The notes below the pieces were generated by a model, which did no database searches, had not been told where the DNA came from, and worked only from the letters and a program-made list of their open reading frames with translations. 64,000 nucleotides of DNA, from positions 496,001 to 560,000 of the forward strand of contig NZ_CP054690.1 in assembly GCF_013348805.1 (NCBI RefSeq). The letters run 5' to 3'. The stretch comes from Rhodococcus sp. W8901 (lineage in GTDB: Bacteria > Actinomycetota > Actinomycetes > Mycobacteriales > Mycobacteriaceae). The translations under genes and the position numbers were made by a program. Shown in pieces: positions 43,055-58,324 of this stretch. Every line of letters begins with the position of its first letter. Position 1 is the first letter of the stretch.

Positions 43055-43420
43055 ATGCTTGTTGTGACGACGAACGACATTCCCGGCTGGGAGATCCAGC
43101 GCGTGATCGGCGAGGTCTTCGGACTGACCGTCCGGTCCCGCAACATCGGCTCCCAGATCGGCGCCGGCCTCAAGTCGCTGGTGGGTGGTGAGCTCCAGGG
43201 CATGACGAAGAACCTCACCGAGAGCCGCAACGAGGCGATGAGCCGACTGATCAACGAGGCGTCGCAGCGGGGCGGGAACGTGATCGTCGCGATGCGGTTC
43301 GAGACGTCCGACCTCGGCGGCAACTGGTCGGAGATCTGCGCGTACGGCACCGCGGCCTACGCGGTACCCGTCACCGACGCCGCGAGGCAGACGGCAGCCG
43401 AGTTGGGCTATCGAAACTGA
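43055..43420 (+). CDS. YbjQ/UPF0145 family protein
   Basis: A 121-residue protein of the YbjQ family, whose members form pentamers and have been suggested to bind metals. VVTTNDIPGWEIQRVIGEVFGLTVRSRNIG and ESRNEAMSRLINEASQRGGNVIVAMRF are the conserved core. It ends in a YGTAAYAVPV strand, normal for the family. ATG 43055 is selected because the homology starts there. It is a single gene; function is unknown. Confidence 0.88.
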   Translation: MLVVTTNDIPGWEIQRVIGEVFGLTVRSRNIGSQIGAGLKSLVGGELQGMTKNLTESRNEAMSRLINEASQRGGNVIVAMRFETSDLGGNWSEICAYGTAAYAVPVTDAARQTAAELGYRN

Positions 43421-43547
43421 CGCGAGCCGTCGAGTCGAACCGGTTCCCTGTCCCGTCCGCGGGACTGGCTGTCGGGAGTCGACGCCGCACGGTCAATGAC
43501 CGAACGGCGGTCACGCGCGGCGAGGGGCCTGCGGCAAGGACGCGAAA

Positions 43548-43585
43548 GGCCCTGCCCGAGATCGGAATCGAACTCGGGCAGGGCC
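43548..43585 (-). terminator. Terminator of the surface protein gene
   Basis: A perfect 13-bp stem (43548-43560 with 43573-43585; GGCCCTGCCCGAG and its complement) with a 12-base loop lies about 30 bases past the stop of the minus-strand surface protein gene, followed on that strand by TTTCGCG. Confidence 0.7.
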
Positions 43586-43614
43586 GGTCGCGCGCGGGAA
43601 CTGGGTGACCGGGC

Positions 43615-44769
43615 TCAGGCTGTTCCGGTGCGTCGCCGGCGGAGCAGCAGGACGCCGCCTCCGGCCAGGCCCACTGCCGCCGTGATTCCGGCGACGGCCG
43701 GGTTCACGAGGGGGACGGCAGCGGTGTCGGCGGTCGCCATTTCGAGGCAGTCGGCGGTACCGGTGCACGAGGCCGGCACGCCTCCGGGCAGGGCGGACGG
43801 GGCGGCCACGAGGGACACGAGGTTGTGGTCACCCTGCTGCGCATACGTTTTGGTGACCACGCTGTAGACGATGGTCACCGTCTGGCCGGGCTGCAGGGTT
43901 CCGGCAATGCCGAAGGTGTCGACAGAGCCCTGGACTGACAGGGCGGCGTCCGAACTGGTCGGTCCGGAGACGAGGTCCGCGTCGTCGAGCAGGCCCGCGA
44001 GCGCCAGCGCCTGGTCGACCGCGAGCGGTTGGGCGCCGGTGTTGGTGAAGGTGACGGTGTAGTTGACCACCTGGTTGTCGTCCAGCGGGCCCGATGCGTC
44101 GGCAGTGTGCGTCACTTGCAACTCGCTCGGTGCCGCGTCGAGTCGCAGCGAGATGTTGTCGGCGTACGCGTCGAGCGAGCCGTAGGCGGCGGTGAAGACG
44201 AGGTCGACCGTCACAGAGCGGGTGCCGACCGGAACGGGCGCCGAGGCGTCGCGGCGGGCGAATCCCCGTACGCCACCGCGGTCACTGTTGGTCACGGCGG
44301 GCAGCGAGAAAGTGCCCAGGACCGTACCGGACGCGTCCGTGAAGGTGTAGTTGACGCCGACGCGGTCGTTCTGGCCGGCGATCGCGCCCAGGTAGGCCCC
44401 GCCGAGTGCGGTCACCTTTCCGGTGTCGATACTGGCCGCGGACGGCGTCAGGTCGACAACCTGCGTGGCCTTCCTGTTGGCATTACCCGAGACCCCGAAG
44501 TAGCTGGTGCCGCCGTCGAACGTCTTCCCGGTCGCGCCCTTCTCGTTGACGATCGTCGGCTGCAGACCGGTGCTGTAGGCCCTCGACGCGAAGGTGGTGC
44601 CCGTCCATTCGGTGATGCCGTTCTCGGCGTCGCCGTTGACGATCAGCTCACCCGGTTGCGCGGCCAGCGGATCCGCTCCGGCCGGTGCCGCGGCGATTCC
44701 CCAGGTGGTCGCGGTCAGAGCCGCAACCGCCAGACCGGAGACGGTCCTTGCGAACGACGCCATCCTCAT
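43615..44769 (-). CDS. Secreted, C-terminally anchored surface protein
   Basis: A 384-residue exported protein. A signal peptide (cleavage after about residue 32, PAGA-DP) leads to a beta-rich N-terminal domain like carbohydrate-binding modules (LIVNGDAENGITEWTGTTF) and a DUF11/adhesin-like immunoglobulin domain (YTVTFTNTGAQPL). The C-terminus is a tripartite sorting tail: VPLVNPAVAG, a short hydrophobic helix and RRRR. There is no LPXTG. This tail is of the kind processed by exosortases or sortases, and an exosortase is encoded 9 kb away. No enzymatic role is suggested. A good hairpin follows it. Confidence 0.8.
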   Translation of the reverse strand: MRMASFARTVSGLAVAALTATTWGIAAAPAGADPLAAQPGELIVNGDAENGITEWTGTTFASRAYSTGLQPTIVNEKGATGKTFDGGTSYFGVSGNANRKATQVVDLTPSAASIDTGKVTALGGAYLGAIAGQNDRVGVNYTFTDASGTVLGTFSLPAVTNSDRGGVRGFARRDASAPVPVGTRSVTVDLVFTAAYGSLDAYADNISLRLDAAPSELQVTHTADASGPLDDNQVVNYTVTFTNTGAQPLAVDQALALAGLLDDADLVSGPTSSDAALSVQGSVDTFGIAGTLQPGQTVTIVYSVVTKTYAQQGDHNLVSLVAAPSALPGGVPASCTGTADCLEMATADTAAVPLVNPAVAGITAAVGLAGGGVLLLRRRRTGTA

Positions 44770-44956
44770 TCTTGCTCCATTCTCGTGCCGCCTGCAGCGT
44801 CACGGGTCCGCAACAGGTGGGGACTCCCCCCACAGTCAGGTTCGCCCACGAAGTGGCACGGAGACGGTTCGGCGAGATCACTGTGCGGCCTCGCGCGCGG
44901 ACTGTGCGCCATCCCGCACCGCTGCGGGATGGCACGAGCACGCTCCGACGGTCCGG

Positions 44957-46198
44957 CTATCCGACCGATACGGCGATTCGCGTCGAGGATGAGAAGTCAC
45001 CGTCGGGTGCGTAGTCCGGCAACCGCGACCCGGCCCCGACCAGTTCGGCAATCGCGGCGGCGGCGCGCGCGCCGGCGTGCCCGTCGCCGTACGGGTTTCC
45101 GGCGGCCGTCATCGTTCGGTACGCGTCGGCGTCGAGGAATAGCCGCGTCGCCTCGCTGAAGATCGCGTCCGGTCGGGTGCCGACCAGCAGAGCACACCCG
45201 GCGTCGATGGCCTCGGGGCGCTCGGTGGTGTCGCGCAGCACCAGTACGGGTACTCCGAAAGTCGGTGCTTCCTCTTGGATTCCGCCGGAGTCAGTGAGGA
45301 CCAGATGGGCGTGACGGAGCGCGGTTGCCAGGTCGGTGTACTCCAGCGGCTCGGTGAGCAGAATGCGTTCGTGCCCACCCAGGTTCGCGGTCAGTGTCTC
45401 GCGCACCATCGGATTCGGGTGCATCGGGCAGAGAACGACGATGTCGGGCACGGCCTCGACGATCCGTCGCACCGACTTCGCGATCGCGCTCATCGGTGGC
45501 CCCCACGACTCGCGGCGATGCAGCGTCAGCAGAACGAGGCGTCGACCGCCGGCCAACGCGGTCCGCAGGGCGGGGTCGGTGGGCGGGATGTCGCTGGACG
45601 CCACGGTGAGCAGCGCGTCGACGACGGTGTTGCCCGTCACCGTGACCCGATCGGGCACGACACCCTCGTCGAGCAGATTGCGGCGGGCCAGGTTTGTGGG
45701 GCACAGATGCAGCGCCGTCACAGCCGCCGTCATCCGCCGATTACCCTCCTCCGGAAACGGGTTGCCGAGGTCGTGCGAGCGCAGCCCGGCCTCGAGGTGG
45801 ACGACGGGGATGTTCTCGCTGAACGCGGCCAGGGCGGCCGCGGTGGAGCTGGACGTGTCACCGTGGACCACCACCGCGTCGGGGCGTTCGGCGCGGAGCA
45901 CCGCACTCGCGGCGGTGGTGACGCGGCCGGACAGCCGGCCCAGCGGTTGACCCGGCTCCATGAGGTTCAGGTCGTGGTCGGCGGAGATCCCGAACGTGGC
46001 GTGGACCTGGTCGACGAGGCCGGTGTGCTGGCCGGTGACGATGACGGTCGGGTCGAGTGCGGGATGGGCCTCGAGTGCCTTCACCAGGGGTGCACATTTG
46101 ATGGCTTCCGGGCGGGTTCCGTAGATGACCGCGATTCGAGCCGACTGTGACTCGCTGCGCGCGGATTGGTGCGACAATTTGCTGTCCCTTTCGCTCAT
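44957..46198 (-). CDS. wecB: UDP-N-acetylglucosamine 2-epimerase (non-hydrolysing)
   Basis: A 413-residue cytosolic enzyme interconverting UDP-GlcNAc and UDP-ManNAc, feeding surface glycan synthesis. Motifs are IYGTRPEAIKCAPLVKAL, VVHGDTSSSTAAALAAF, the HLEAGLRSHD loop with its catalytic residues, and LTDSGGIQEEAPTFGVPVLVLR near the C-terminus. ATG 46198 (MSERDSKLSH) is preferred to an in-frame earlier start that would add 39 unrelated residues. It is divergent from the LuxR regulator leading the sortase-exosortase cluster, which suggests ManNAc is used in a glycan made by that cluster. Confidence 0.92.
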   Translation of the reverse strand: MSERDSKLSHQSARSESQSARIAVIYGTRPEAIKCAPLVKALEAHPALDPTVIVTGQHTGLVDQVHATFGISADHDLNLMEPGQPLGRLSGRVTTAASAVLRAERPDAVVVHGDTSSSTAAALAAFSENIPVVHLEAGLRSHDLGNPFPEEGNRRMTAAVTALHLCPTNLARRNLLDEGVVPDRVTVTGNTVVDALLTVASSDIPPTDPALRTALAGGRRLVLLTLHRRESWGPPMSAIAKSVRRIVEAVPDIVVLCPMHPNPMVRETLTANLGGHERILLTEPLEYTDLATALRHAHLVLTDSGGIQEEAPTFGVPVLVLRDTTERPEAIDAGCALLVGTRPDAIFSEATRLFLDADAYRTMTAAGNPYGDGHAGARAAAAIAELVGAGSRLPDYAPDGDFSSSTRIAVSVG

Positions 46199-46445
46199 CT
46201 CGATCCGCAGTCCGACTGTCGGATCGGTGCATTCGTCGACAGCCAACCCGACCTCTCGATGCTGTCGGGTCTTGCGGAGCCAGGAGGCGGGGCGCCGCAC
46301 AGATCGGTGCGGCACCCCGCAGTTCCCGCACCGATTCGGTGAAATCCCCGCCGACCCGTGGTTTACGGAGGCGGAGAGCTCTGGTCAAGCGTTAGATATA
46401 GGCGATCACGATCAATATGACTGGGAGAAGGGCGCGACGGCAACG

Positions 46446-49202
46446 ATGAACGACGGCGGATTCCGCAGCCGCACGGCCGAGCCGATCTCCACCCTTCGAC
46501 AGGTTCAGGATGCTTTCGAGGCCGCCGAACTCGGTCTCGGATCTGCGCTCGTGATCACTGGACCCACCGGGTCCGGACGCACTCGTCTGCTGGGCGAGTT
46601 GGTCGTCAATTCCTCCTTCGACACGGTCTCCATCGGCGGCGCGTCGAACGTGTGCGAGCAGGTCGACTACAGCCTGATGGCGTTGCTCGGCCGATCGGGT
46701 CGGCAGCGCGATGCTTCCCGGCGGACGGCGGGGCTCGAGATCCGCAAATCCGCGATCGCCACCCGCGCCGAACATCTGCTCGACGCGATCGCGCGGCATG
46801 CCGATCACGAGGGGCCGTTGGCGATACTCGTCGACGATGCCGACCGCATGGGGGAGGACTGCCAAACGCTCCTCGGGTACGTGGGGCGAAGGCTCGCGAA
46901 TCATCGGGTCGTCCTGGTGCTCGTCAGCGGAGTCGAACCGCCCGAACCGTTCCTGCCCCTGTCTCAAGTCGCAGTGCCCCCGCTCGGGAAGGCCGCTGCA
47001 GTCGCGCTCATGACCGAGGCGCTCGGAAGAACCCCGGCGCCGGCTCTCGTCGATGAGCTGCACCGCATCTCGCGCAGTAATCCGGGTGCGTTGCTGGAAC
47101 TGTGCGAGACGGTCACCGACCGGCAGGTCGACGGAATCGAGTCGATCCGCTATCCGATCGTGGTCAGCGGCTCCCGCGCGTCGCGTTGGATGGAAATCGA
47201 CGACCGTATGACCGAGAACCAGCGGACGATGTTGTCCCTTCTGGCGGTGGCAAAGTCGGTTGCGGTACCGGATCTGCTCGAACTGGCTGCGGACCGGGCA
47301 AGCGCCGACCCCGAACGCGAGTTGGACGGATTACTCTCGCTGCGACAGCTGGAACGGATCGGGGACCGGGTACGGATCGGCAATCAGCTGGACCGGTGGG
47401 CCGTCTACGGGACTGCCACCCCCGGTCGCCGGACGCTCGCGCACACCCTGGTCGACGAGCGTGGGTATCAGAGAGAGCTCGGTAGCGGACGTGACGGCGT
47501 CACGGACGCTTCGGTCCTGCGTCCTGTCGACGCGGAACTCGAGCCGCAGCAGGTCCTGGAGAACGCCGACGCGATGGCCCGCGAGTGGTCGTGTTCTGTC
47601 GCCCTGTCGATTCTGCGTGACGCAATCTCGATGTCGTGCGGCACGAGCGCGAGCGCACTGCGGTTGACCGCCGCGAAGCTCGCGCTCGAACAGGGATTCC
47701 GCAGCGACGCCGAGAGTCTCGCGGACGAGGTGGTGTGGTCGGATGCATGCGTGGCAGACCGTGCCGCGGCCGAACTCGTCAAGATCGAGGCGCGCTATCT
47801 CGCCGATCGGCCGATCAACGTCGAGTCCGTCGTCGATGCAGTGCGCGAGTGTGCCGACGAGGCCCCCGCCGCCGCGATGGACTTGGCAGGGGTCGCGATA
47901 CTCTTTCAGCTCGAGCAGGGCCAGTTCTACGGTGTGTACGAGCTGTACAGGTTGGCGGAGCGTATCCACACCCGCCACCCCGGAAGCCCCTGCGATGCGC
48001 TCACGCTGGCACGCATGAGCCTGGCGCTGGCGCGGGAGAACTCCGAGGAGGCGCAGTCTCTGCACAACGAGGCGGACGCCGTCGAGCCGTTCTCCCGGCG
48101 TGACTTTCGCGGTATCGCCGCCTCGGGAATGTTCCTCACCCGGCTGGGACGGGTCGAGGAGGCCCGGGCACGGTTCGAATGCGCTTCGAATCCGTCCCTG
48201 ACCCCGCTCCAACGGATGTACCTGCTCACGGCGCAGGTCGACTGCGAGATCATTGCGGGAAACCCCGTCGGAGCGAGGAATCTCTGGGAACACGCCGACG
48301 CGATCCTCTCGTCTCACACGCACCTGCGCACGCTGCGGCTCGCTCAGCGCGTGCAGATCCTGGGGTTACAGGGACAGTTCTGTGAGGCCGAACAGATTGC
48401 GGCCCAGTTGCTTTCCGTCAGTGCGTCGGGGGAGATCGACAGCCTGCAGGCGAGGGTGCTCGCCGTGCTGGGCGAGAACGCATTGATGCAGGGTGATGCG
48501 GAACGGGCGATCGCCCTGCTCGAGCAGAGCATCGACCACGTCGACCGGCATGCGTGCATCTGGAAGACGCAACGGTACGTCGACCTCATCGAGGCGCTCG
48601 TGCTTGCCGGCGACCTGCGGGCCGCGGCGCGCATGCTGGACGTGACGACCGAACGGCTGCAGCGGCGCACCCAGACGACTCTGACGTCGGCGATCCTGGC
48701 ACGGGGACGGCTGCTGGTCGCCGAAATCACTGATGCCCGTGAGCTGGTCGAGTTGGCGCTGGGTTCCCGGGACGACAAGGTTCCCGCTCTGGAGCGGGCT
48801 CGTTCCCTGGCGATCTATGCCGACAGGCTGCTCGAGCACGGCAAGGTGACCCAGAGCCGTCAGCGTGCGCGGACGGCCTTCGCGCTGTTCGAGCGCATCG
48901 GCGCCGACGGGTGGATCAGTGGTGGTCGTTGGTCCACCCGCACTGGTATGGAGGCCGCCGCGCCCTCGGCATCCGGTGATCCTCGACTCGGGACGCTGAG
49001 CGACATCGAGCGGCGGGTGGTCCAACTCGTCGTGCAGGGCATGCGCAACCGTGAGATCGCTGCGCAACTGTACGTTTCGCAGCGCATGGTGGAGAAGCAT
49101 CTCACCAGCATCTTCCGCAAACTTGGTATCCGTTCGCGCGCCGAGGTCTTCGCGTTGATCAAGAACGAGCAGCCGGCGTCTGCCTCGAGCATCCCTGTGT
49201 GA
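46446..49202 (+). CDS. Large LuxR-family ATPase regulator (LAL type)
   Basis: A 918-residue signal-transduction regulator. The N-terminal P-loop domain has GPTGSGRT (residues 39-46), where arginine replaces the usual Walker A lysine, and LAILVDDADRM as Walker B. A long helical (TPR-like) middle of over 500 residues follows. The C-terminal LuxR helix-turn-helix reads LSDIERRVVQLVVQGMRNRE and LYVSQRMVEKHLTSIFRKL. ATG 46446 begins the conserved part. It ends 15 bases before the sortase gene, so it heads the operon and probably activates it. Confidence 0.88.
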   Translation: MNDGGFRSRTAEPISTLRQVQDAFEAAELGLGSALVITGPTGSGRTRLLGELVVNSSFDTVSIGGASNVCEQVDYSLMALLGRSGRQRDASRRTAGLEIRKSAIATRAEHLLDAIARHADHEGPLAILVDDADRMGEDCQTLLGYVGRRLANHRVVLVLVSGVEPPEPFLPLSQVAVPPLGKAAAVALMTEALGRTPAPALVDELHRISRSNPGALLELCETVTDRQVDGIESIRYPIVVSGSRASRWMEIDDRMTENQRTMLSLLAVAKSVAVPDLLELAADRASADPERELDGLLSLRQLERIGDRVRIGNQLDRWAVYGTATPGRRTLAHTLVDERGYQRELGSGRDGVTDASVLRPVDAELEPQQVLENADAMAREWSCSVALSILRDAISMSCGTSASALRLTAAKLALEQGFRSDAESLADEVVWSDACVADRAAAELVKIEARYLADRPINVESVVDAVRECADEAPAAAMDLAGVAILFQLEQGQFYGVYELYRLAERIHTRHPGSPCDALTLARMSLALARENSEEAQSLHNEADAVEPFSRRDFRGIAASGMFLTRLGRVEEARARFECASNPSLTPLQRMYLLTAQVDCEIIAGNPVGARNLWEHADAILSSHTHLRTLRLAQRVQILGLQGQFCEAEQIAAQLLSVSASGEIDSLQARVLAVLGENALMQGDAERAIALLEQSIDHVDRHACIWKTQRYVDLIEALVLAGDLRAAARMLDVTTERLQRRTQTTLTSAILARGRLLVAEITDARELVELALGSRDDKVPALERARSLAIYADRLLEHGKVTQSRQRARTAFALFERIGADGWISGGRWSTRTGMEAAAPSASGDPRLGTLSDIERRVVQLVVQGMRNREIAAQLYVSQRMVEKHLTSIFRKLGIRSRAEVFALIKNEQPASASSIPV

Positions 49203-49217
49203 GGTTCCGAATCCCCT

Positions 49218-50072
49218 ATGCCTGGACGACATCGATATTCGCCGTACAGCCCCACGCGGGTGGTCCTGGACGCGCCGGTCACACGCGCGCAACGAATCTA
49301 CCGTGGGGCAGGCGAGGCGCTGCTGACCCTCGCGCTGATCGGGGTCCTGTTCATCGTGTACGAGGTGTACTGGACCGACCTCACCTCCGACCGCAAACAG
49401 CGCACGGCCACAGAGCAGCTCGATCAGCTCTGGTCCGAGCCCGACCGCGAGCGGACTGCGACCGAGTCGGTGTCCGGACCGGTCGGCTTCGCGAAGCTGC
49501 ACATCCCAGCCTTCGGCAACGATTTCCAGCTGACGGTGGTGCAGGGCACATCCGACGCCGAGTTGGAAATCGGGCCGGGGCACTACGAGGGAACCGCGCA
49601 ACCCGGAGAACGGGGCAACTTCGCGCTCGCCGGTCATCGCGTGGGCAAGGGATCCCCGTTCAACGACATCGACCTGCTGAACACCTGTGACGCGGTGGTG
49701 GTGGAAACCCGGACCCATTGGTTCACCTACCGGGTGCTGCCGAGCGCGAGCGAAGCGCTGGACTGGGCGACGAACAGGAAACCTGCCACGTGTTCGGCGG
49801 ATTCGGTCACCGTCACGCCACTGCCGGCGCCCTATCAGCGCGCGGTGGGGCAGCAGGTGGTCGATCCGACGGCTATCGGTGTGATCGCACCGGTGCCGAT
49901 GGACGCGGATTACGCGGAGCCGCCGCAGGACGGAGTCGCGCTGCTGACGCTCACCACCTGTACGCCCCGTTTCTCGGCGACGGATCGGCTGGTCGTGCAG
50001 GCAGTCCTGGTCGACACGGCGGAGAAGGATCCTCTGAATCCTGTTGTTCCCAAGTCCCTCTCGGAAGGATAG
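49218..50072 (+). CDS. srtE: Class E sortase
   Basis: A 284-residue membrane-anchored transpeptidase that joins exported proteins bearing an LAXTG-type signal to the cell wall. One N-terminal helix (LLTLALIGVLFIVYEVYW) anchors it. The catalytic histidine is in NFALAGHRVG, the cysteine in LLTLTTCTPRFS and the arginine in the following SATDRLVV. TLTTC is the class E form of the active-site strand. A 62-residue protein with an LAFTG signal is encoded in the same operon and is its likely substrate. Confidence 0.9.
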   Translation: MPGRHRYSPYSPTRVVLDAPVTRAQRIYRGAGEALLTLALIGVLFIVYEVYWTDLTSDRKQRTATEQLDQLWSEPDRERTATESVSGPVGFAKLHIPAFGNDFQLTVVQGTSDAELEIGPGHYEGTAQPGERGNFALAGHRVGKGSPFNDIDLLNTCDAVVVETRTHWFTYRVLPSASEALDWATNRKPATCSADSVTVTPLPAPYQRAVGQQVVDPTAIGVIAPVPMDADYAEPPQDGVALLTLTTCTPRFSATDRLVVQAVLVDTAEKDPLNPVVPKSLSEG

Positions 50073-50074
50073 TT

Positions 50075-50230
50075 GTGTACGCCTGGATCTGGCGGCATCT
50101 GCCCGGCCCCTGGCCGGCGAAACTGGTCGCCGCGGTGGTGCTCTTCGTCGCGATGGTGGCGTTGCTGATGCTCGTGGTGTTTCCCGTGGTCGAGCCGTTC
50201 GTCCCGTTCACCCGGGTGGCAGTGCTGTGA
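50075..50230 (+). CDS. 51-residue single-pass membrane protein, sortase-associated
   Basis: A very small protein starting at GTG, two bases after the sortase stop, with GGAAGGA upstream. It opens with an aromatic/basic head (YAWIWRHLPGPWPAKL) and continues as one long hydrophobic helix of about 25 residues ending FVPFTRVAVL. Small proteins with this head are found next to class E sortases in related actinobacteria as far as I recall, but I have no functional evidence. It may stabilise the sortase. Its stop overlaps the next gene by four bases (GTGA). Confidence 0.78.
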   Translation: MYAWIWRHLPGPWPAKLVAAVVLFVAMVALLMLVVFPVVEPFVPFTRVAVL

Positions 50231-50757
50231 GGGCCGACCACGCGTTGGCCGGTGTCGTCGTGGCCGTTCTGCTCGGCGCAGTTGTCGGTTGCGGTGCGGC
50301 ACAGGATGCGCCGGAGGTGGCGGCGGCACCGTCGGCCGTCGTCGCCGCGGTACCCGACGTTCCGGTCCCGCGTACGGCGGGCGACTGCTCGGTCCTCTCG
50401 GTCGAGCAGGTCGAGGTGCTCAACGGCGAACGGGTCGGGTCGGTGCTCGTCGATCCGACCGTCGACCCGTCCGCGTGCTTCTTCACCGATCCCGGCGGCG
50501 CCGTGGTGGCCTCGGTGTGGGTGGCGCGGACCGAGGCCGAGACGACGGCGGTTGAGGTGGTTGACCGCGCGGCCCCGATATCGACCAGCTCGCCTGCGTC
50601 GGAACCGGCGGGCTGGAGCGGCGGCCGGTTCGGGGGTCCGGACGGCGCGGTGTACGCGGTTGCACGTGGAACAACCGCGGTCGTCGTCACCACTGCACAG
50701 CCGCAGTCGGTGCGTGCGCAGCGGTTGGCGCTCGCGGTCGTCGAGACGATCGGGTGA
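50227..50757 (+). CDS. Predicted lipoprotein of the sortase operon
   Basis: A 176-residue protein with a signal peptide and lipobox VVGC (cysteine near residue 22). The mature part is a small domain with two cysteines (CSVLSVEQ and CFFTDPGG) likely disulfide-linked, resembling DUF2020/DUF3558-like lipoproteins, though I cannot fix the family. GTG start overlaps the stop of the small membrane protein. It is probably displayed on the outer face of the membrane near the sortase. Confidence 0.78.
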   Translation: MRADHALAGVVVAVLLGAVVGCGAAQDAPEVAAAPSAVVAAVPDVPVPRTAGDCSVLSVEQVEVLNGERVGSVLVDPTVDPSACFFTDPGGAVVASVWVARTEAETTAVEVVDRAAPISTSSPASEPAGWSGGRFGGPDGAVYAVARGTTAVVVTTAQPQSVRAQRLALAVVETIG

Positions 50758-50912
50758 CGGGCCGGCCGAGCAGGGCGGTACGGCGCTGCGCACCATCGCG
50801 TGCGTGGTTCCGCCCTTTCGTAGCGAGCCGTGGTTCGAGTGTGTGGGGACCAGTACCGTCGGTGTGTTCGCGTCGCCGCGGAACGTGTCAGGACTCAACG
50901 AGGAGCAGTTGG

Positions 50913-51695
50913 TTGTTCAGGTCGATCTTTGTGATCGCGGCGGCGTCGGTGGTAGCGACGTTCGTCGTCGCGTGTGGGACCGAACCGGACACCGCGCTTC
51001 CCACCTATCAGGCCGCCGAGGGCACCTGCTACGTCCGCGAGACTGCAGAGGAGATGCTCTCGCTCAGCAACGTCTCTCCGTGGATCAATTGCGAGTATCC
51101 GCATCAGCTCGAGGTGTACGGATTCGGTGTGTTGCCGGACGATCTGCTGAATCAGCCCGATCGTCCGTCCAATGCATTGGAGCGCCTGCAGGCCTCGGAT
51201 GTCTGTCCGTGGGACGGGATTCGCGGATACCTGGGTGCACGCGAATTCGACTACCAGTACGGAATATCGGTGTGGGCGAAGTACCCGACCCAGAAGGAAT
51301 GGGCCGGCGGGCTCCGCACGGTGGTGTGCTCGCTCGGTGTGCAGGATCCGCTGCAGCCGGAGAGCCGCCCCGAGTTCACCGGATCTCTGCGGAACATCAT
51401 GGGACGCACCATCTCCGATGGCATTCGGCTGTGCCGTTCGGGTGAGAAGCAGACGGTGTGTTCACGTCCGCACGACGCCGAGATGACCGGGGCGATCCCC
51501 GTGCCGAACGGGGACGCCCAGGTCCGCCTCGATGCGGCCTACCGCGCCTGCCAGCCGGTGATCGATCAGTACACGGCGGGGCAGCGGCCGGACGACTTCG
51601 TGATCAAGCCGCTCGTCGGTGAGACGTCCGCGGATTGCTGGTACGGCCCGGCGACCGGCACCGTCATCGGCAGCGTGCGCGGTGGACTCAGGTGA
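50913..51695 (+). CDS. Septum-formation-family lipoprotein
   Basis: A 260-residue predicted lipoprotein. TTG 50913 has AGGAG seven bases upstream and begins a clean signal peptide (FRSIFVIAAASVVATF) with lipobox VVAC. An in-frame GTG at 50754 overlaps the previous stop but adds 53 residues that look non-coding. The mature domain has repeated cysteine blocks (GTCYV, CEYPHQLEVYGF, VCPWDGIRGYLGA) typical of the septum-formation (PF13845) family of actinobacterial surface proteins. A direct role in this system is unknown. Its stop overlaps the next start (GTGA). Confidence 0.8.
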   Translation: MFRSIFVIAAASVVATFVVACGTEPDTALPTYQAAEGTCYVRETAEEMLSLSNVSPWINCEYPHQLEVYGFGVLPDDLLNQPDRPSNALERLQASDVCPWDGIRGYLGAREFDYQYGISVWAKYPTQKEWAGGLRTVVCSLGVQDPLQPESRPEFTGSLRNIMGRTISDGIRLCRSGEKQTVCSRPHDAEMTGAIPVPNGDAQVRLDAAYRACQPVIDQYTAGQRPDDFVIKPLVGETSADCWYGPATGTVIGSVRGGLR

Positions 51696-53302
51696 GCGAC
51701 AAGTTCGAACTCGTCGACTCGGACGGTCTCGGATTCACCGAGGATCCACTGGCGTTGGTGCCCGGCACCAAGCCCCCGAAGCCGCGCCCGCGACTGCGGG
51801 CGGCGCTCGCGACGGTCTCCCGGATCTTCGGATACCGGATCGAGGGCACGGCGCTCGGCTGGGTATCGGTGGGCGCGGGCGCGGCCTTCGCGGGCCTCAT
51901 GCTGATGCGTCTGTTCTACGGCGGCGCCATAGGCCTCAGTGATCAGGGCGATGGTCAGCGGCTCACGTGCGGCATGGGTCTGCGCGCCGGAAACCCTTAC
52001 AACACTCCGGTCGACGACCTGGTGTACACGACGTACTTCGACCACCGGTGGTACGGCGAAGACTGCCCGTGGAACACATACGGGCAGGCGTACAACTCGT
52101 CGCAGCTCTACCTGCTTCAGCTGGCGGAGTGGTTGACTCCGCTGTTGCGCCTGCCTGGAGTCATGGACCTGCGAGCGCTCGGCGTCCTGTGCGCCGTCGT
52201 ACTCGGCCTGCTCGCCGGACTCCTCTTCGCCTGGACCCCGGGATCGTTGGTGGGCAAGGCGTGCGTCGTCGGTGGCGTGTGGCTGGTGGTGGCCGACGCA
52301 TCGTTCGCCGGCTACTTCGTGTCGCCCTACAGCGACACCGGGGCCATCCTCGGTGTACTGGCGTTGATGGTGGCGTCCCTGGCGATGTGGCGGGCGCAGC
52401 GCGTGCACTGGTGGCACGTCGCCGCGATAGGACTGATCGCGCTGTTCACGGCAACGACCAAGACCCAGGCGGTGACGTTCGCCGTCGTCGCGGCCGGGCT
52501 GATGCTCTGCCGCCGTGTGGGTGACCCGGCGTCCCTCGGCCAGTATCCGTTGCAGGGCAGGTGGTTCGGAATCGGCGCGGTTGGTGCACTGCTCGCCTCG
52601 GTCGGCCAGTACCTGCGCACGCAGCCGGCCCGGTTCGCCGAACTGAACCAGTACAACGCGGTTTTCGTCGAGATGCTCCCGCACAGCCCACATCCCGACC
52701 AGGACCTGGCCCGGCTGGGGCTCGATCCGTCGCTCGTGTCCGGTGTCGGCTCCCGCATCAACTCGCCGAACTCGGTCACGGAACTTCCGGGTTACCAGGG
52801 CTTCCTGGACAAGACCTCCATGTGGGATCTGCTCTCGCAGGTCTACCTGCACGAGCCCACCCGACTGCTCTCGATGATGGGGCGGGGTCTCGTGGGAATG
52901 TCCAAGCTGCGGGCGGACTACATCTACTCGTATCCGTGGTATTCGGGACGGCCCGACACCCAGGAGTGGCGGGTATCGGTCTTCTACCACTTCTGGCGCA
53001 TGATGTTCGGCGCGCTTCCGCTGCTCATCGTCGCGTTGACGCTCGTTGCATGCGTGCTGTTCGTCGCGGTGCTGCGGGTGTGCCCGGACCAGCAGGACAA
53101 GAGCATCGGCGCGACCGGCCTGTTCCTCGCGGTCGCCGCGATCGCACAGTTCTGGGCGGTGAATCTCTCCGACGGTGCGTCCGATCTGATCAAGCACCTG
53201 ATGCTCACCAACCTCACCGTCGGACTGGTACTCGTGCTCGGCGTCTATTCGACGGTCGTGTTGCGGTCGAGTGTGATCCGGGAACGAGGAGTCCCGAAGT
53301 GA
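51692..53302 (+). CDS. Polytopic membrane glycosyltransferase-like (GT-C type) protein
   Basis: A 536-residue inner-membrane protein with about ten or eleven helices. After helix 1 it has a long external loop with an acidic motif, GLSDQGDGQRLTCGMGL, in the place where GT-C enzymes carry their catalytic DxD-like residues. DHRWYGEDCPWNTYGQAYNSSQ follows. GT-C proteins transfer sugars from polyprenyl-phosphate donors outside the membrane; WsfD-like proteins are the nearest analogy, but the assignment is by layout. GTG overlaps the lipoprotein stop, and the stop overlaps the exosortase start. Confidence 0.72.
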   Translation: MSDKFELVDSDGLGFTEDPLALVPGTKPPKPRPRLRAALATVSRIFGYRIEGTALGWVSVGAGAAFAGLMLMRLFYGGAIGLSDQGDGQRLTCGMGLRAGNPYNTPVDDLVYTTYFDHRWYGEDCPWNTYGQAYNSSQLYLLQLAEWLTPLLRLPGVMDLRALGVLCAVVLGLLAGLLFAWTPGSLVGKACVVGGVWLVVADASFAGYFVSPYSDTGAILGVLALMVASLAMWRAQRVHWWHVAAIGLIALFTATTKTQAVTFAVVAAGLMLCRRVGDPASLGQYPLQGRWFGIGAVGALLASVGQYLRTQPARFAELNQYNAVFVEMLPHSPHPDQDLARLGLDPSLVSGVGSRINSPNSVTELPGYQGFLDKTSMWDLLSQVYLHEPTRLLSMMGRGLVGMSKLRADYIYSYPWYSGRPDTQEWRVSVFYHFWRMMFGALPLLIVALTLVACVLFVAVLRVCPDQQDKSIGATGLFLAVAAIAQFWAVNLSDGASDLIKHLMLTNLTVGLVLVLGVYSTVVLRSSVIRERGVPK

Positions 53303-53883
53303 CCGCCGGACGAGGGGTGCGCATGCCGGATGCTCCGTCGGTCCGATGGACGGGGGTCGGGGTCTATGCCCTGATCATCGTGATGCTATTGATTCGCCAA
53401 CCTCAGTTCCGTGCCTGGGAAGCTGGGTTGGCGGCGCTGCTCAACGGCCTCGTCGGGGCGCCCACCAAATGGGTGCGCGGGTCCGACACCTTCTATGTCG
53501 GCATCGGCACCAACAAGGTGTTCGCCCTGGAACTGGTCACCGGCTGCAGCACCGCGCTGCTGATCCTGCCGATGCTGCTGCTGGCCGCCATCTACCTCCA
53601 CTTCGGCCGGGTCCGGCTGTTGCACATGACGATCGGACTGGTCATCAGCTGCGTGGCCATGCTCAGTGTCAACATGATCCGCCTGGTCGTCGTGGGGGTG
53701 TACACGGTGCACAACGGGCGCTCCGGCTTCGAGATGGCGCACACCATCATCGGGTCGCTCATCGTGTTGGCGGGTGGATGCACGACCCTGGTGGTCTTCA
53801 GTAGGTGGATCGGTCGGGCCAGCACGGTCGCGGATGGTGCCGGTCCGATCCGTGCGCGATTGAAAGAGAGTCCCCGTCAGTGA
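53299..53883 (+). CDS. Exosortase/archaeosortase family transpeptidase
   Basis: A 194-residue membrane protease/transpeptidase with about five helices, short for the family. All three catalytic elements are visible: the cysteine in ELVTGCSTALLILP, the arginine in VNMIRLVVVGV and the histidine in FEMAHTIIGS. These match the Cys-Arg-His core of exosortases and archaeosortases, which process C-terminal tails of a short motif, a helix and a basic cluster. It lies between two glycosyltransferase-type genes with four-base overlaps on both sides, like XrtG-glycosyltransferase pairs in other Gram-positives. Substrate is unproven; the surface protein at 43615 is a candidate. Confidence 0.87.
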   Translation: MTAGRGVRMPDAPSVRWTGVGVYALIIVMLLIRQPQFRAWEAGLAALLNGLVGAPTKWVRGSDTFYVGIGTNKVFALELVTGCSTALLILPMLLLAAIYLHFGRVRLLHMTIGLVISCVAMLSVNMIRLVVVGVYTVHNGRSGFEMAHTIIGSLIVLAGGCTTLVVFSRWIGRASTVADGAGPIRARLKESPRQ

Positions 53884-55253
53884 CCTTCGATACCGTGCTC
53901 GGCCTGACGATCGTGCTCTCGCTGATCCTCGGCCTCGTGTTCCTGGTGTATGTGATCGCCATTCTCGTCCCGTTCCTGCGCCACGTTCCCGAACGCCCCG
54001 GCGACCCGGACGAATTCGAACTGCACTTCATCATCCCCTGCCTCAACGAGGAAGTGGTGATCGGCGACACCCTGAGCTACCTGCGGCGACACTTCCCGGA
54101 CTGTCACGCGTGGGTGACCGACGACGAGTCGGAGGACGGGACGCGCGACGTCGTCGCTGCGATCGAGCAGTTCGATCCCATGGTCCACCTCCTCCCACGC
54201 ACCCTCCCGAACGCCCGTACCGGCAAGGGCGACGCGCTCAATTTCGGTTATCGCGCGATCGACGCCCAGCTGCCCGACGACGTCGACCGGAACAAGGTGC
54301 TGATCTGCATCGTCGACGCGGACGGACGACCTGCTCCGAACATGCTGGAGATCTCGGCGGGCCCGGACTGCTTCGGCAACGACTACGTCGGGTCGGTGCA
54401 GGTCGAGGTCCGGATGAGCAACCGCGCGGATCCGCAGCCGCTCGGCCCGGGTCGGCAGTGGAAGAACAGGTTCGCCCGGACCCTGGTGCGTCTGCAGGAT
54501 CTGGAATTCCGGGGCCCGATCTCCGCGATGCAGATGGCCCGGCGCTACTCACGGACCGTCAGCATCGGCGGCAACGGTCAGCTGAGTCGGCTGTCGGCGC
54601 TCGACGCGGTCGCGGCCCGATTCGGTGAGCCGTGGCACGGCGCACTGCTCGAGGATTTCGAACTCGGACTGCACCTGATCCTGCTGGGATGGCGCAATGC
54701 GTACACCACGGCGAGCTGGGTCGATCAGGAGGCGCTGCCGGAATTGAAACCGCTGATCCGGCAGCGGGTTCGCTGGGCGCAGGGCGGAATGCAGTGCATC
54801 CGCTATCTGCCGGCGATCTGGCGCTCACGGCGGGTGACCAACCTCGGCGCATGGGAGATCACCTATTTCATGCTGACTCCCTGGCTGCAGGTGATCGGCA
54901 CGATCGTCTATCCGTTGCCACTGCTGGTGATGACCTGGAACATGGTCAACTACCCGGAGTTCTTCAAGTCGTACTTGGTGAGCGGCGGGTGGGCGCTGTT
55001 CGTGTCCTATCTGATCCTCGGTGTGGGCGAGTTCGCGATCTGGGGTCCGCTGTATCGCCGGCGCAGCGAACCGCAGCTGTCGCGTCTCCACGGGATCGTG
55101 TTGGGCATGAGCTACGTGGGCTACATGCTGATGTCCTACGTCGTGGCGTGGAGGGCCTTCGGGCGCCTCATCAGTCGTCAGAGCGACTGGGTCAAGACGA
55201 AACGCAACGCCGAGCGAACGTCGGTGCCGATGCACCGGATCGCCGGCACCTGA
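53880..55253 (+). CDS. Processive family-2 glycosyltransferase
   Basis: A 457-residue membrane glycosyltransferase of the cellulose/hyaluronan-synthase type. One N-terminal helix, a cytoplasmic GT2 domain (FIIPCLNEEVVIGDTLSYL, TDDESEDGT, the DxD-type VDADGRP, LLEDFELGLHL), then RQRVRWAQGG, the QxxRW product motif. Three or four C-terminal helices follow. It should make or extend a sugar chain at the membrane. It starts in the exosortase stop (GTGA overlap), giving an exosortase-GT pairing. A 131-base gap separates it from the next gene. Confidence 0.9.
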   Translation: MTFDTVLGLTIVLSLILGLVFLVYVIAILVPFLRHVPERPGDPDEFELHFIIPCLNEEVVIGDTLSYLRRHFPDCHAWVTDDESEDGTRDVVAAIEQFDPMVHLLPRTLPNARTGKGDALNFGYRAIDAQLPDDVDRNKVLICIVDADGRPAPNMLEISAGPDCFGNDYVGSVQVEVRMSNRADPQPLGPGRQWKNRFARTLVRLQDLEFRGPISAMQMARRYSRTVSIGGNGQLSRLSALDAVAARFGEPWHGALLEDFELGLHLILLGWRNAYTTASWVDQEALPELKPLIRQRVRWAQGGMQCIRYLPAIWRSRRVTNLGAWEITYFMLTPWLQVIGTIVYPLPLLVMTWNMVNYPEFFKSYLVSGGWALFVSYLILGVGEFAIWGPLYRRRSEPQLSRLHGIVLGMSYVGYMLMSYVVAWRAFGRLISRQSDWVKTKRNAERTSVPMHRIAGT

Positions 55254-55384
55254 GTGGTGCGGTAGCGCGCACCGAACCCGCACATCGGGACCGCCCGGCG
55301 CTGGCGGCGGTGCTGCGCGAGGCATCATCGAGCGGGGTAGCGGAGTATCGGAGTCGAGAACGACACGAGAAGAAGAGGATTCGG

Positions 55385-55573
55385 ATGTACACACTGGGTG
55401 CGGGGCCTAGTGCCGGTGCGGGCTCGGCGGCCGTGGCCGGTGGGGGAACGCTGGCCTTCACGGGCGCGCCGGTTGCCGGCGCCCTGGTCCTGGTGATGTT
55501 CGTGCTGGTGATGGGGCTGCTCCTCGTCCGTGCATCGCGGGTGCGGCCGAACGAGCTGCCCGATCTGGCCTGA
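55385..55573 (+). CDS. 62-residue LAXTG-signal protein
   Basis: A tiny protein: a Gly/Ala/Ser-rich head of about 22 residues, then LAFTG (residues 23-27), a hydrophobic helix of about 20 residues (GALVLVMFVLVMGLLLV) and a basic RASRVR stop. This is a complete class E sortase sorting signal (LAXTG, helix, positive tail) with almost no cargo and no N-terminal signal peptide. AGAGGA lies seven to twelve bases before the ATG. It is encoded in the sortase operon, so it is a probable in-house sortase substrate. Confidence 0.72.
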   Translation: MYTLGAGPSAGAGSAAVAGGGTLAFTGAPVAGALVLVMFVLVMGLLLVRASRVRPNELPDLA

Positions 55574-55583
55574 CACTTCCGTC

Positions 55584-56570
55584 GTGCGTCGTCGAATCCT
55601 TCTGTCGGGAGCGGCGATTGCGTTCGTTGTCGCGTCGGTACTCGCCGTCGTGACGGTGTGGGACACACGTGACGCAGACCGGCTCGACGGCGGCGGACAC
55701 GACGACCCGCCGACCGCCGCGTATGCGGCACCTTCCGTGGTGCCGGCCGAGCCACCGATCCGGACGCCGGACCCCGCTCGGACCGCGGGACCGTTCGTCA
55801 CGTACAACACGTATCCCGGTTCGGCGCATGCGCAGTGGGGCAAGTACTCGATAGCGCTGGAACGGGACGGCAGGTACTACCTGCTGTCTGCCGGTCATGT
55901 CGGCGGCAAGGTGGGTGCGCACCTCGAGCTCGGGTGGTCGGGGCCCACGCAGGCGGTTGTCAGCCACAGCACCCGCCGCTGGGATGCCGACTTCGGCTCG
56001 GTCACGGGTGGATCCGGTCTCGACATGTCCATGGTGGACACCGGTCCGGAGCCCGTCTCGCCGGTGCTGACGTTGTCGGCGGCCCGCGGCGCGACGCCGG
56101 ACGACGTCGTGGTGGTGCCGACAGGGTCCGGGACCGATCGAGTGACGCTGCCGCGCACGGCGAGAATCGCCGCTGTCGCCGACGACCTCGAGCCGGGGGC
56201 CGTCGTGTGCCAGTCCGGCGCCGAGTGGTTCGCGTCGGAATACACCGCGGCGGCCGGCAACGTCCGGTGCGGACGCCTGACGGCACCGTGCCCCACGACG
56301 AGCGACACCTGCAGTTTCGCCGGCCTCGACGCGGCCCCCGCCGTCGCCCCGAACGATTCCGGAAACCCCGTGTGGGTACCGCGGGCCGACGGCACGGTCG
56401 CGGTCCTCGGGATCGTGTACGCCGCCGGCGGGTGCGACAGGTCCTCGGGTACCTGCCCGACCGGCCTGTTCACCCGGGTGCAGGCGTACACGCGACGGGA
56501 GTGGGCGGCCGATGAGACCCTGCCGGGGGCGCCGACCGGCGAGGGCGGTCGGATCGTCATGGATCACTGA
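55584..56570 (+). CDS. Secreted trypsin-like serine protease
   Basis: A 328-residue exported protein starting at GTG 55584, ten bases after the previous stop. A twin-arginine-like basic head (RRR) and hydrophobic segment give a signal peptide or anchor. The mature part is an S1-type protease of the streptogrisin/alpha-lytic kind: the histidine in LLSAGHVGG, an aspartate in DADFGSV, and the serine in NDSGNPVW, where GDSGGP is usual. Four cysteines in the C-terminal half form likely disulfides. Its location at the end of the surface operon suggests processing of cell-wall-displayed products. Confidence 0.8.
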   Translation: MRRRILLSGAAIAFVVASVLAVVTVWDTRDADRLDGGGHDDPPTAAYAAPSVVPAEPPIRTPDPARTAGPFVTYNTYPGSAHAQWGKYSIALERDGRYYLLSAGHVGGKVGAHLELGWSGPTQAVVSHSTRRWDADFGSVTGGSGLDMSMVDTGPEPVSPVLTLSAARGATPDDVVVVPTGSGTDRVTLPRTARIAAVADDLEPGAVVCQSGAEWFASEYTAAAGNVRCGRLTAPCPTTSDTCSFAGLDAAPAVAPNDSGNPVWVPRADGTVAVLGIVYAAGGCDRSSGTCPTGLFTRVQAYTRREWAADETLPGAPTGEGGRIVMDH

Positions 56571-56596
56571 GCAGGTCGAGTCCCGGGCGGTGACGA

Positions 56597-58324
56597 TCAG
56601 ATGGCGACCGTCGACGTCGTCGGCAGGAAGTGGAATCCGAAACCGATGTTCGCCGTGTTGGTCGGATCGGGGCCCGGACCGGGGGTGGTGACCCGGACCT
56701 GCGGGATCTGCCGCGGCGCCGGCGCCACCGGGGGCGCCTCGGTCCAATCGGGGCGCGCCGCCTGTAGTTCCAGTGCGATCTCGATCAGCGCGGTCTCGTC
56801 CCACGGGCGCCCGCCGATCTGGACCCCGAAGGGCAGCCCGGTGGCCGCGGAACGTCCGGCCGGCGTGCAGATCACGGGGGCGCCGGTGAGGTTGGCCCAC
56901 CGCACGTCCCCGGTCGTACCGCCGAACACCGAGACGCCCGCGATCTCGAGTCGCTTGGACCCGTCCACCTTCGAGCCCGGCACCAGGACGGCGTCGAGGT
57001 CGTTGTCGGCGAACATCCGGTTGTACTCGTGCTGGTACACCAGTCGGTTGCGGGCAGCGGTCATGTAGTCGATCGACGGAACCGCCAGTGCCGCCAGGGC
57101 GCCGGCGACGGTCACGTTGTTGTCGAGGCGGTAGGAGCCCAGCTTGTCGGCGAACTGTTTGTGGTAGCTGCCCATCTCGGCGGAGTCGCCGGTCAACAGG
57201 TCCGGGCCGGCGATCGGCAGCGCGACGTCGACGAAGCTGCCGCCGAGGCGTCCGATGAGATCGAGGTACTCCGCGAACAGTGTGCCGAGTGGTGCGGGCA
57301 GCGCATCGACACTGCGTCGGGCCACACCGAACCGCTTGCCCGACAGCGGTGTCGGGCCGCCCTTCGCGGCGATCGGGTAGCCGCCGGCCGGGACGTCGGG
57401 GCCGACCGTCGTCGTCGGATCGTCGGGATCCGCGCCCGCCATGAAGCCGAGGAGTAGTGCGGCGTCGGCGACGCTGCGGCCCATCGGTCCGGCGTGGTCG
57501 CGGGTCCACGTCAACGGAATGACGCCGCGGGTGCTGCACCGGCCGAACGTCGGTTTGATCGACGTGATCCCGCACGCGCTCGCCGGCAGACGGAGCGAAC
57601 CGCCCGTGTCGGTGCCGGTTGCGAGCGGGACGAAACGCGCCGCGAGGACGGCCGCGCTGCCGCCCGACGATCCGCCCGGTGAGTACTCGGTGTTCCACGG
57701 GTTGCCCACCTGTTCGGTGGCGACGCCGATCGCGAACTCGTCGGTGTGCGCGTGACCCATCAACACCATGCCCGCGTCGCGCAGGCGCGTCCACGCCGTA
57801 GAGTCACCGGCGGCGATGTTGCCCTCGAGAACCTTGCTCGACGCCGTCAGCGGCAGGCCCGCGACCGCGAACAGGTCCTTGAGAGCCAGCGGCAACCCGC
57901 ACACCAGCGGGGCGTCGCCGACGGCGGCGCGGCCCTTGCCCGACAGTCGCTGCGCCGCAGCATCGGCTGCCTCGTACGCCATCTCGGGATAGATCCGCAC
58001 CCAGCCGCCGGTCGCGCCGTCGAAGGCGGCGCTGCGGTTCAGGCAGGCGTCGAGCAACTCTCGGGGATGCAGCGTGCCGGACTGCAGGAGGCTGGCGGCC
58101 TCCACCGCGCTGAGCAGCGCGGGATCCGTCGCCGTGATGGATCCGGGTGCGGGAAGACCCTGCGCGGGGGCACTGCGGCGGACGGTGGATCGCGCCGCGG
58201 CCACCCCGGGGGCCGCCGCCGCCACCGCCGTCACGCTCGCCGCGCCTGCCGCACCGAGCGCGGCCGCGCCCAGGAAGCCCCGTCGTGTCAGCCCGGACCG
58301 CGATCCGCCCCCCACTGCACTCAT
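56597..58324 (-). CDS. Tat-exported amidase-signature family enzyme
   Basis: A 575-residue hydrolase of the amidase-signature family (glutamyl-tRNA amidotransferase A-like). The Ser-cisSer-Lys triad is present: lysine in GLPLALKDLFAV, the cis-serine in YSPGGSSGGSAA and the nucleophile in GTDTGGSLRLPAS. The N-terminus carries a Tat signal (LTRRGFLGAAALG), so it acts outside the cytoplasm, unlike most family members. GGAGGG precedes the ATG. It converges with the protease gene with 26 bases between stops. The amide substrate is unknown. Confidence 0.88.
   Translation of the reverse strand: MSAVGGGSRSGLTRRGFLGAAALGAAGAASVTAVAAAAPGVAAARSTVRRSAPAQGLPAPGSITATDPALLSAVEAASLLQSGTLHPRELLDACLNRSAAFDGATGGWVRIYPEMAYEAADAAAQRLSGKGRAAVGDAPLVCGLPLALKDLFAVAGLPLTASSKVLEGNIAAGDSTAWTRLRDAGMVLMGHAHTDEFAIGVATEQVGNPWNTEYSPGGSSGGSAAVLAARFVPLATGTDTGGSLRLPASACGITSIKPTFGRCSTRGVIPLTWTRDHAGPMGRSVADAALLLGFMAGADPDDPTTTVGPDVPAGGYPIAAKGGPTPLSGKRFGVARRSVDALPAPLGTLFAEYLDLIGRLGGSFVDVALPIAGPDLLTGDSAEMGSYHKQFADKLGSYRLDNNVTVAGALAALAVPSIDYMTAARNRLVYQHEYNRMFADNDLDAVLVPGSKVDGSKRLEIAGVSVFGGTTGDVRWANLTGAPVICTPAGRSAATGLPFGVQIGGRPWDETALIEIALELQAARPDWTEAPPVAPAPRQIPQVRVTTPGPGPDPTNTANIGFGFHFLPTTSTVAI

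Follow-up and report, generated by a model that had tools for sequence, protein, structure and literature searches.

A two-transpeptidase gene block of Rhodococcus sp. W8901 with a probable role in surface-glycan synthesis, and a tyrosine-headed mini-protein that recurs beside polymer synthases

Introduction

In the PEP-CTERM/EpsH systems of Gram-negative bacteria, a membrane exosortase with Cys, Arg and His residues occurs with C-terminally tagged secreted proteins and has polysaccharide genes alongside, according to the excerpts of PMC1569441. The XrtG cassette of Firmicutes, as outlined in parts of PMC12854382, combines a tagged protein, an exosortase and two glycosyltransferases, and NCBIfam describes further systems under the names XrtP, XrtR and XrtS. 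Class E sortases of Streptomyces recognise LAxTG tags (excerpts of PMC5148588). Paenibacillus alvei requires WsfD for the glucose branch of a polymer of Gal and N-acetylmannosamine (ManNAc), which is attached through tyrosine to its S-layer protein (excerpts of PMC2943079). Here we describe a block of genes from Rhodococcus sp. W8901 that resembles each of these in part. It lies in a stretch of 64,000 nucleotides (nt) of contig NZ_CP054690.1 (positions 496,001 to 560,000 of the forward strand), hereafter the window, and encodes among other products a class E sortase, an exosortase-family protein, a family 2 glycosyltransferase (GT2), the UDP-N-acetylglucosamine (UDP-GlcNAc) 2-epimerase WecB and a mini-protein of 62 amino acids (aa), hereafter the mini, that starts with Met-Tyr and carries an LAFTG sorting tag.

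In contrast to the PEP-CTERM/EpsH systems, the loci considered here belong to single-membrane actinobacteria, have a small exosortase with GT2 and WecB as fixed partners, and include a sortase-tagged mini and, in the window, a sortase gene inside the cluster. The XrtG model (TIGR03110) was not reached by the window exosortase (19.1 against a cut-off of 102.75), and the passage of PMC12854382 on the XrtG cassette names no epimerase, mini or sortase for it. In common with the XrtP, XrtR and XrtS systems, the window GT2 reaches the XrtP-associated model and a protein named CoaP is found at locus L098 (L and G numbers are our labels for loci and genomes). However, the window exosortase stays below the cut-offs of its nearest models, XrtS (NF033767, 83.3 against 145), XrtR (NF012138, 64.1 against 150) and XrtP (NF012139, 62.1 against 200), and WsfD, the lipoproteins and the class E sortase part fall outside them. 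The block shares its class E sortase and LAxTG tag with Streptomyces, where secreted proteins, chaplins for instance, are anchored (excerpts of PMC5148588), whereas the putative substrate here is a signal-less mini beside a synthase. With P. alvei it would share a ManNAc-containing polymer, a WsfD-dependent branch and a tyrosine linkage, all three predicted here; the carrier there is a large S-layer protein (excerpts of PMC2943079), while we propose a sortase-tagged stub of about 25 residues.

Most of the parts are already recognised: NCBIfam names exosortase groups, the GT2, CoaP, PVV-CTERM, WsfD and an LAXTG small protein. In the open-licence papers that we searched, we found neither the N-terminal tyrosine rule described below, nor a link of exosortase-free minis with QxxRW synthases, nor a unit of two transpeptidases that includes the sortase gene itself. 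In our assessment, the role of exosortases in single-membrane actinobacteria is unsettled, and the retention of synthase-made glycans in the wall is poorly explained.

A 13-kb block absent as a whole from six genus relatives

A region of about 13 kb (window positions 43410..56597) was without DNA match in six genus relatives (BLASTN, E ≤ 1e-20), these being the six of 13 relatives whose DNA left of the right-flank gene was fetched. In all six, the alignment extended up to 56591-56616 and resumed at position 43458 or lower, in three of them only at 41.3 kb or below. The two flanks of the block are 54 bp apart in L198, and about 1.7-6 kb of other DNA stands in its place in L199, L200 and L202. 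The gene just to the right was present in 14 of 14 genus genomes and the window exosortase in one of them, a sporadic distribution. The block is not unusual in GC content, and the window genome is a single 5.7-Mb contig. Since the DNA match is missing between the flanks in the six relatives, a tagged secreted protein, WecB and ten plus-strand genes form one unit of about 13 kb, which is absent as a whole from these relatives.

A preliminary description of this DNA had placed an operon-like unit at the ten plus-strand genes. All ten are present, and curated models identify most of them, but this extent proved too small, as the block reaches left to about 43.4 kb and takes in WecB and the tagged protein. 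The genes had also been described as joined mostly by four-base overlaps; these were found at five of nine junctions (50227-50230, 50754-50757, 51692-51695, 53299-53302 and 53880-53883), and the one at 50754 holds only for a start codon with about 57 residues ahead of the lipoprotein signal. The gap from the GT2 to the mini is 131 nt and that from the mini to the protease-like gene 10 nt. A consensus scan of the block gave no promoter, and terminators did not exceed the count in shuffled sequence.

Exosortase, GT2, WecB and the mini recur together

We compared 55 actinobacterial exosortase loci, the window included. They comprise 44 places in 42 of the 249 genomes of an order sample, found with query P0007, eight loci outside the order (XrtS model, E ≤ 1e-10, class sample) and three Microbacterium loci that were found via a GT2 search of genome contigs, so that the GT2 is there by selection. 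A QxxRW-type GT2 was present at 55 of 55 loci and was the sole partner never missing. By best label it lay within 5 kb at 54 of them, and in L094 (stretch L203) GT2 and WecB match fall within one open frame. WecB was found within 8 kb of the exosortase at 47 loci. The mini, defined by Met-Tyr, a short stub, an L[AP]xTG-like tag, a helix and a basic tail, was found within 5 kb at 41 loci, namely 39 by pattern plus L086 and L157. In L086 (6608-7315) the mini (MYKPP...LPYTG and helix) and the exosortase form one in-frame fusion; the fusion would be natural if the assembly is right, and with a genome 68% complete an assembly slip is possible. The exosortase triad of Cys, Arg and His was conserved at all 55 loci.

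Other genes of the block were rarer. WsfD and Septum_form were each found at six of the 55 loci, and a sortase gene lay within 9 kb of the exosortase at four (window, L113, L147 and L162), as counted with a profile built from two sequences and hence of limited sensitivity. The sortase gene was therefore rejected as a regular member of exosortase clusters. The protease-like and DUF2020 genes had no relatives in the 43 other loci examined, and the protein with trypsin-like motifs was likewise rejected as a core member. The co-conservation expected from the preliminary description thus applies to exosortase, GT2, WecB and mini, which stand together in many families and recur as a unit in other actinobacteria; it does not extend to the protease and DUF2020 genes, and covers the sortase gene only at the four loci named.

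In a quick tree without support values, the 14 mini-less loci formed two groups, with eight and five members, plus L111. The window grouped with L078, L113 and L147, which have WsfD and Septum_form, and with L085, L087 and L088, which have neither. The exosortases of four loci (L162, L170, L171 and L173) form a diverged branch and are extended at the C-terminus by about 200 residues; no mini was found there.

N-terminal-tyrosine minis adjoin polymer synthases away from exosortases

The window mini (55385..55573, plus strand) has 62 aa, the LAFTG tag, one membrane helix and a basic tail. It scores below the LAXTG_small_WW model (NF058583, 28.6 bits, cut-off 65), which the L098 mini reaches with 88.9 bits and which matches 23 of 28 minis at E ≤ 0.1. 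The sorting tag is kept in nearly all minis, with the variants VATTG (L157) and LAAPG (L163). The mini has no signal peptide, and its basic C-terminal tail predicts insertion with the N-terminus out, so that the tyrosine would be exposed and LAFTG would lie at the face of the membrane. In calling starts, we chose an in-frame start giving Tyr at position 2 upstream of the tag wherever one existed. Exosortases had 44 LAxTG-type tails within 5 kb; a start of this kind was available for 39 of these tails, and the other five lay in longer frames.

We then searched the order and class samples with a profile of 28 minis (A1). In the order sample, the top matches were exosortase-linked minis. From the further matches we fetched 24 loci (six plus eighteen), picked by score and a short open frame, most weak matches lying outside this set. 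Ten of them carried Met-Tyr minis and had no exosortase match in the stretch (L163-L166, L176-L178, L189, L190 and L192). Each of these minis, which span eight genera, stood beside a same-strand GT2, at most 85 nt away or overlapping, with DxD and QxxRW motifs. The fourteen tails without a Met-Tyr start (L175, L179-L188, L191, L193 and L194) had no QxxRW GT2 in the stretch.

The class sample gave 28 loci beside the window: six known exosortase loci, three Met-Tyr minis, two Met-Pro-Tyr minis and 17 other tails. The Met-Tyr minis (L211, L222 and L223) were each beside a GT2. In L217 and L230 (near 1483-1662) the mini starts Met-Pro-Tyr and overlaps an open frame that encodes a GT2 with QQLRW; neither the GT2 profile nor the strict motif scan had picked up these two GT2s, which were found in the overlapping frames. 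Tyrosine would again be second in these two minis once Met is removed. The seventeen other tails, mostly long surface proteins, had no QxxRW GT2 within 1.5 kb.

Overall, 15 of 15 N-terminal-tyrosine minis away from exosortases (13 Met-Tyr and two Met-Pro-Tyr) were beside a QxxRW GT2, compared to none of 31 other tails (Fisher p 2e-12 if the rows are taken as independent, which they are not). Thus, the mini is associated with the polymer synthase, also at loci that have no exosortase nearby. This link, together with the N-terminal tyrosine and the left part of the block, goes beyond what the preliminary description had noted.

The mini tag goes with sortase

Of the 42 genomes in the order sample that have an exosortase, 41 encode a sortase somewhere, compared to 172 of the 207 without an exosortase; the sole exosortase genome without one (G153) is 79% complete. 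A separate check of 32 genomes found a sortase in all 32. The ten order genomes with Met-Tyr minis at exosortase-free loci all have a sortase, and nine of them are without any exosortase match; in G011 an exosortase lies elsewhere in the genome. Sortase being present and exosortase mostly absent in these genomes, the mini tag goes with sortase. The exosortase was rejected as the reader of LAxTG, as minis occur without it.

Secreted proteins with tags not of the LPxTG type were recognised by eye in 18 of 32 exosortase loci scanned, with at least one such protein in each. The tags include PVPLASGAGLW in L098 and its kin, DIPAVAP in L087 and VPLVNP in the window, and the tagged protein of L098 is the one that NCBIfam names CoaP. 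The presence of a class E sortase and an exosortase in the same block, put forward in the preliminary description, was confirmed, both models being reached (NF033747 and TIGR04178). What recurs across loci is the use of both transpeptidase machines rather than adjacent genes for them.

A proposed route and its alternatives

The gene content, the co-conservation, the motif conservation and the absence of the block from relatives are what sequence shows. The genes behave as a unit, being absent as a whole from six relatives and having a core that recurs, and the suggestion of a glycan that they build and present with proteins at the cell surface is still the best reading; we consider it probable that the block is a surface-glycan unit. 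With regard to the product, WecB, the processive GT2 motifs and the WsfD precedent together suggest a branched, ManNAc-containing polymer. GT2 relatives at loci without exosortase or mini had WecB nearby in eight of twelve cases (L080-L084, L089-L093, L095 and L096), so that the GT2-WecB pair exists on its own. WecB was not found in 23 other profile-match loci (L163-L165 and L175-L194).

We propose the following route. WecB, as its family would predict, would make UDP-ManNAc, which the GT2 would use to build and, by analogy with its family, export a glycan, and WsfD would add a side sugar outside the cell. The exosortase may cut or transfer the C-terminally tagged 384-aa surface protein, a substrate suggested by its family. 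The mini would work with the synthase and insert with its N-terminus outside. Sortase E, if it cleaves as its family does, would cut the mini between Thr and Gly of LAFTG and join the stub of about 25 residues to peptidoglycan. The N-terminal tyrosine would present or carry the glycan, and sortase would in this way bind the polymer to the wall. That the route holds in all its parts, from glycan synthesis through sortase anchoring to a tyrosine that presents or carries the glycan, we put at somewhat short of an even chance, and the link of tyrosine to glycan is drawn from the pattern of occurrence. A more specific form of it is distinctly doubtful, if possible: a peptide of about 5-25 residues (longer in a few) would serve as both primer and anchor, the chain would begin on the N-terminal Tyr of the mini, or be handed to it, in a glycogenin-like manner, and sortase, instead of LytR-CpsA-Psr ligases, would join the C-terminal Thr to peptidoglycan, with or without an exosortase. 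The tyrosine rule leads to a specific prediction, namely that the tyrosine bears sugar and that the stub is part of peptidoglycan. If true, sortases would anchor polysaccharides as well as proteins. The block offers a compact set of two transpeptidases, each with a candidate substrate, and one synthase.

Several observations weigh against this route. Because starts giving Tyr-2 were chosen by us, the invariance of Tyr-2 is partly built in; as a check on this choice, the 31 comparison tails had no start giving Tyr-2. The tyrosine is the sole Ser, Thr, Tyr or Asn of the stub in seven of 28 aligned minis, but 21 of the 28 have further Ser, Thr or Asn there. Exosortase and GT2 occur without a mini at 14 of 55 loci, so the two can function as a core that does not need it. 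Disruption of EpsH in Methylobacillus left the polysaccharide unaffected, as reported in the excerpts of PMC1569441, which speaks against exosortases taking a direct part in polymer synthesis. Finally, a small LPLTG protein without N-terminal Tyr in L164 (5059-6631) stands beside a GT2 lacking QxxRW; it is perhaps a second kind of mini/GT2 pair.

The main alternative is that the mini is a small synthase subunit that assembles or gates the GT2, with sortase cleavage releasing it or switching it off and no glycan attached. PgaD/IcaD is such a small subunit of the PgaC/IcaA synthase. The position of the mini beside QxxRW GT2s fits this role, as does its single short helix, and PgaC was the best named model in four of five GT2s scanned, in each case below cut-off. 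The subunit role leaves the kept sorting tag and the N-terminal Tyr unexplained, and the GT2 does without a mini at 14 of 55 loci; we regard it as unlikely, though to be taken seriously.

Alternatively, the exosortase could be the main attachment enzyme, joining the tagged surface protein to a glycan or glycolipid made by the GT2, while the mini anchors something else. The GT2 that is never missing from the 55 loci, the non-LPxTG-type tags at 18 of 32 scanned by eye, and the frequent proximity of exosortases to exopolysaccharide genes (excerpts of PMC1569441) are in line with this. Neither the N-terminal Tyr nor the synthase-linked minis away from exosortases are explained by it, and we consider it improbable.

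It is less probable still, to a marked degree, that the mini serves the exosortase, and not sortase, as substrate or cofactor. The two lie near each other at 41 of 55 loci and are fused in L086, but nine order genomes with a Met-Tyr mini have no exosortase match while all have a sortase, and the tag of the mini is the motif of class E sortases according to the excerpts of PMC5148588. That the genes are mere neighbours through transfer, with no shared function, fits the sporadic occurrence of the block (one of 14 genus genomes) and the protease and DUF2020 genes not common to other loci, but it is contradicted for the core by the joint presence of exosortase, GT2, WecB and mini in many families, as well as by the block being missing in one piece from the six relatives, and can hardly be credited.

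The other genes of the block

The leftmost gene (43615..44769, minus strand) encodes the 384-aa secreted protein, which has a PF25549 domain and ends in the tag VPLVNPAVAG, a helix and RRRR. It is a candidate exosortase substrate and scores below the PVV-CTERM model (NF051874, 16.8 bits, cut-off 27). Next to it, the divergent gene that had been called a UDP-GlcNAc epimerase (44957..46315, minus strand, exact start uncertain) is indeed WecB, the non-hydrolysing 2-epimerase (TIGR00236, 430 bits, cut-off 210).

The plus-strand row opens with an AAA ATPase/LuxR-type regulator (46446..49202; PF13191, PF00196), which has an alternative in-frame start upstream at 46125. It is followed by the class E sortase (49218..50072; NF033747, 232.5 bits, cut-off 160), which aligned with 5uus over 222 residues and, as judged by eye, retains the sortase-site residues His, Cys and Arg. 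A 51-aa membrane protein (50075..50230) matched no model; a look-alike was seen by eye near the L162 sortase gene (about 5772), and it is possibly a regular sortase companion. Two putative lipoproteins, each with a lipobox-like Cys by eye, belong to DUF2020 (50227..50757; PF09449) and Septum_form (50754..51695, start uncertain; PF13845). The WsfD-type glycosyltransferase (51692..53302) reached NF051875 with 291 bits (cut-off 80).

The exosortase-family protein (53299..53883), with Cys83, Arg128 and His148, reached TIGR04178 (34.8 bits, cut-off 23) and was slightly below the cut-off of Pfam Exosortase_EpsH (23.7 against 25.7); it had no PDB sequence match at E ≤ 1. The GT2 (53880..55253) reached the model of XrtP-associated glycosyltransferases (NF053846, 583 bits, cut-off 520) and has the DxD, ED and QxxRW motifs. 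A hydropathy scan gave two helices only. The single GT2 sequence had no PDB match at E ≤ 0.01, whereas a four-row GT2 profile matched only 6yv7, 6yv8 and 6yv9, weakly (E 0.0024). As a protein query against a plasmid collection, the GT2 gave two distant matches (34% and 28% identity).

The last gene (55584..56570) had been described as a serine protease. Its secreted product does carry trypsin-like motifs (SAGHV and NDSGNP-like), but no NCBIfam or Pfam family was matched at E ≤ 1 and no PDB relative at E ≤ 0.1.

Two further sortases are encoded in the same genome. A second class E-like sortase (L001:1447-3483, C1 at about 3391788) adjoins a large protein ending in LPVTG. A third, lipoprotein-like sortase (L003:70-1953, C1 at about 1744966) adjoins a repetitive protein rich in Gly and Ser, which has a helix at the C-terminus and a basic tail.

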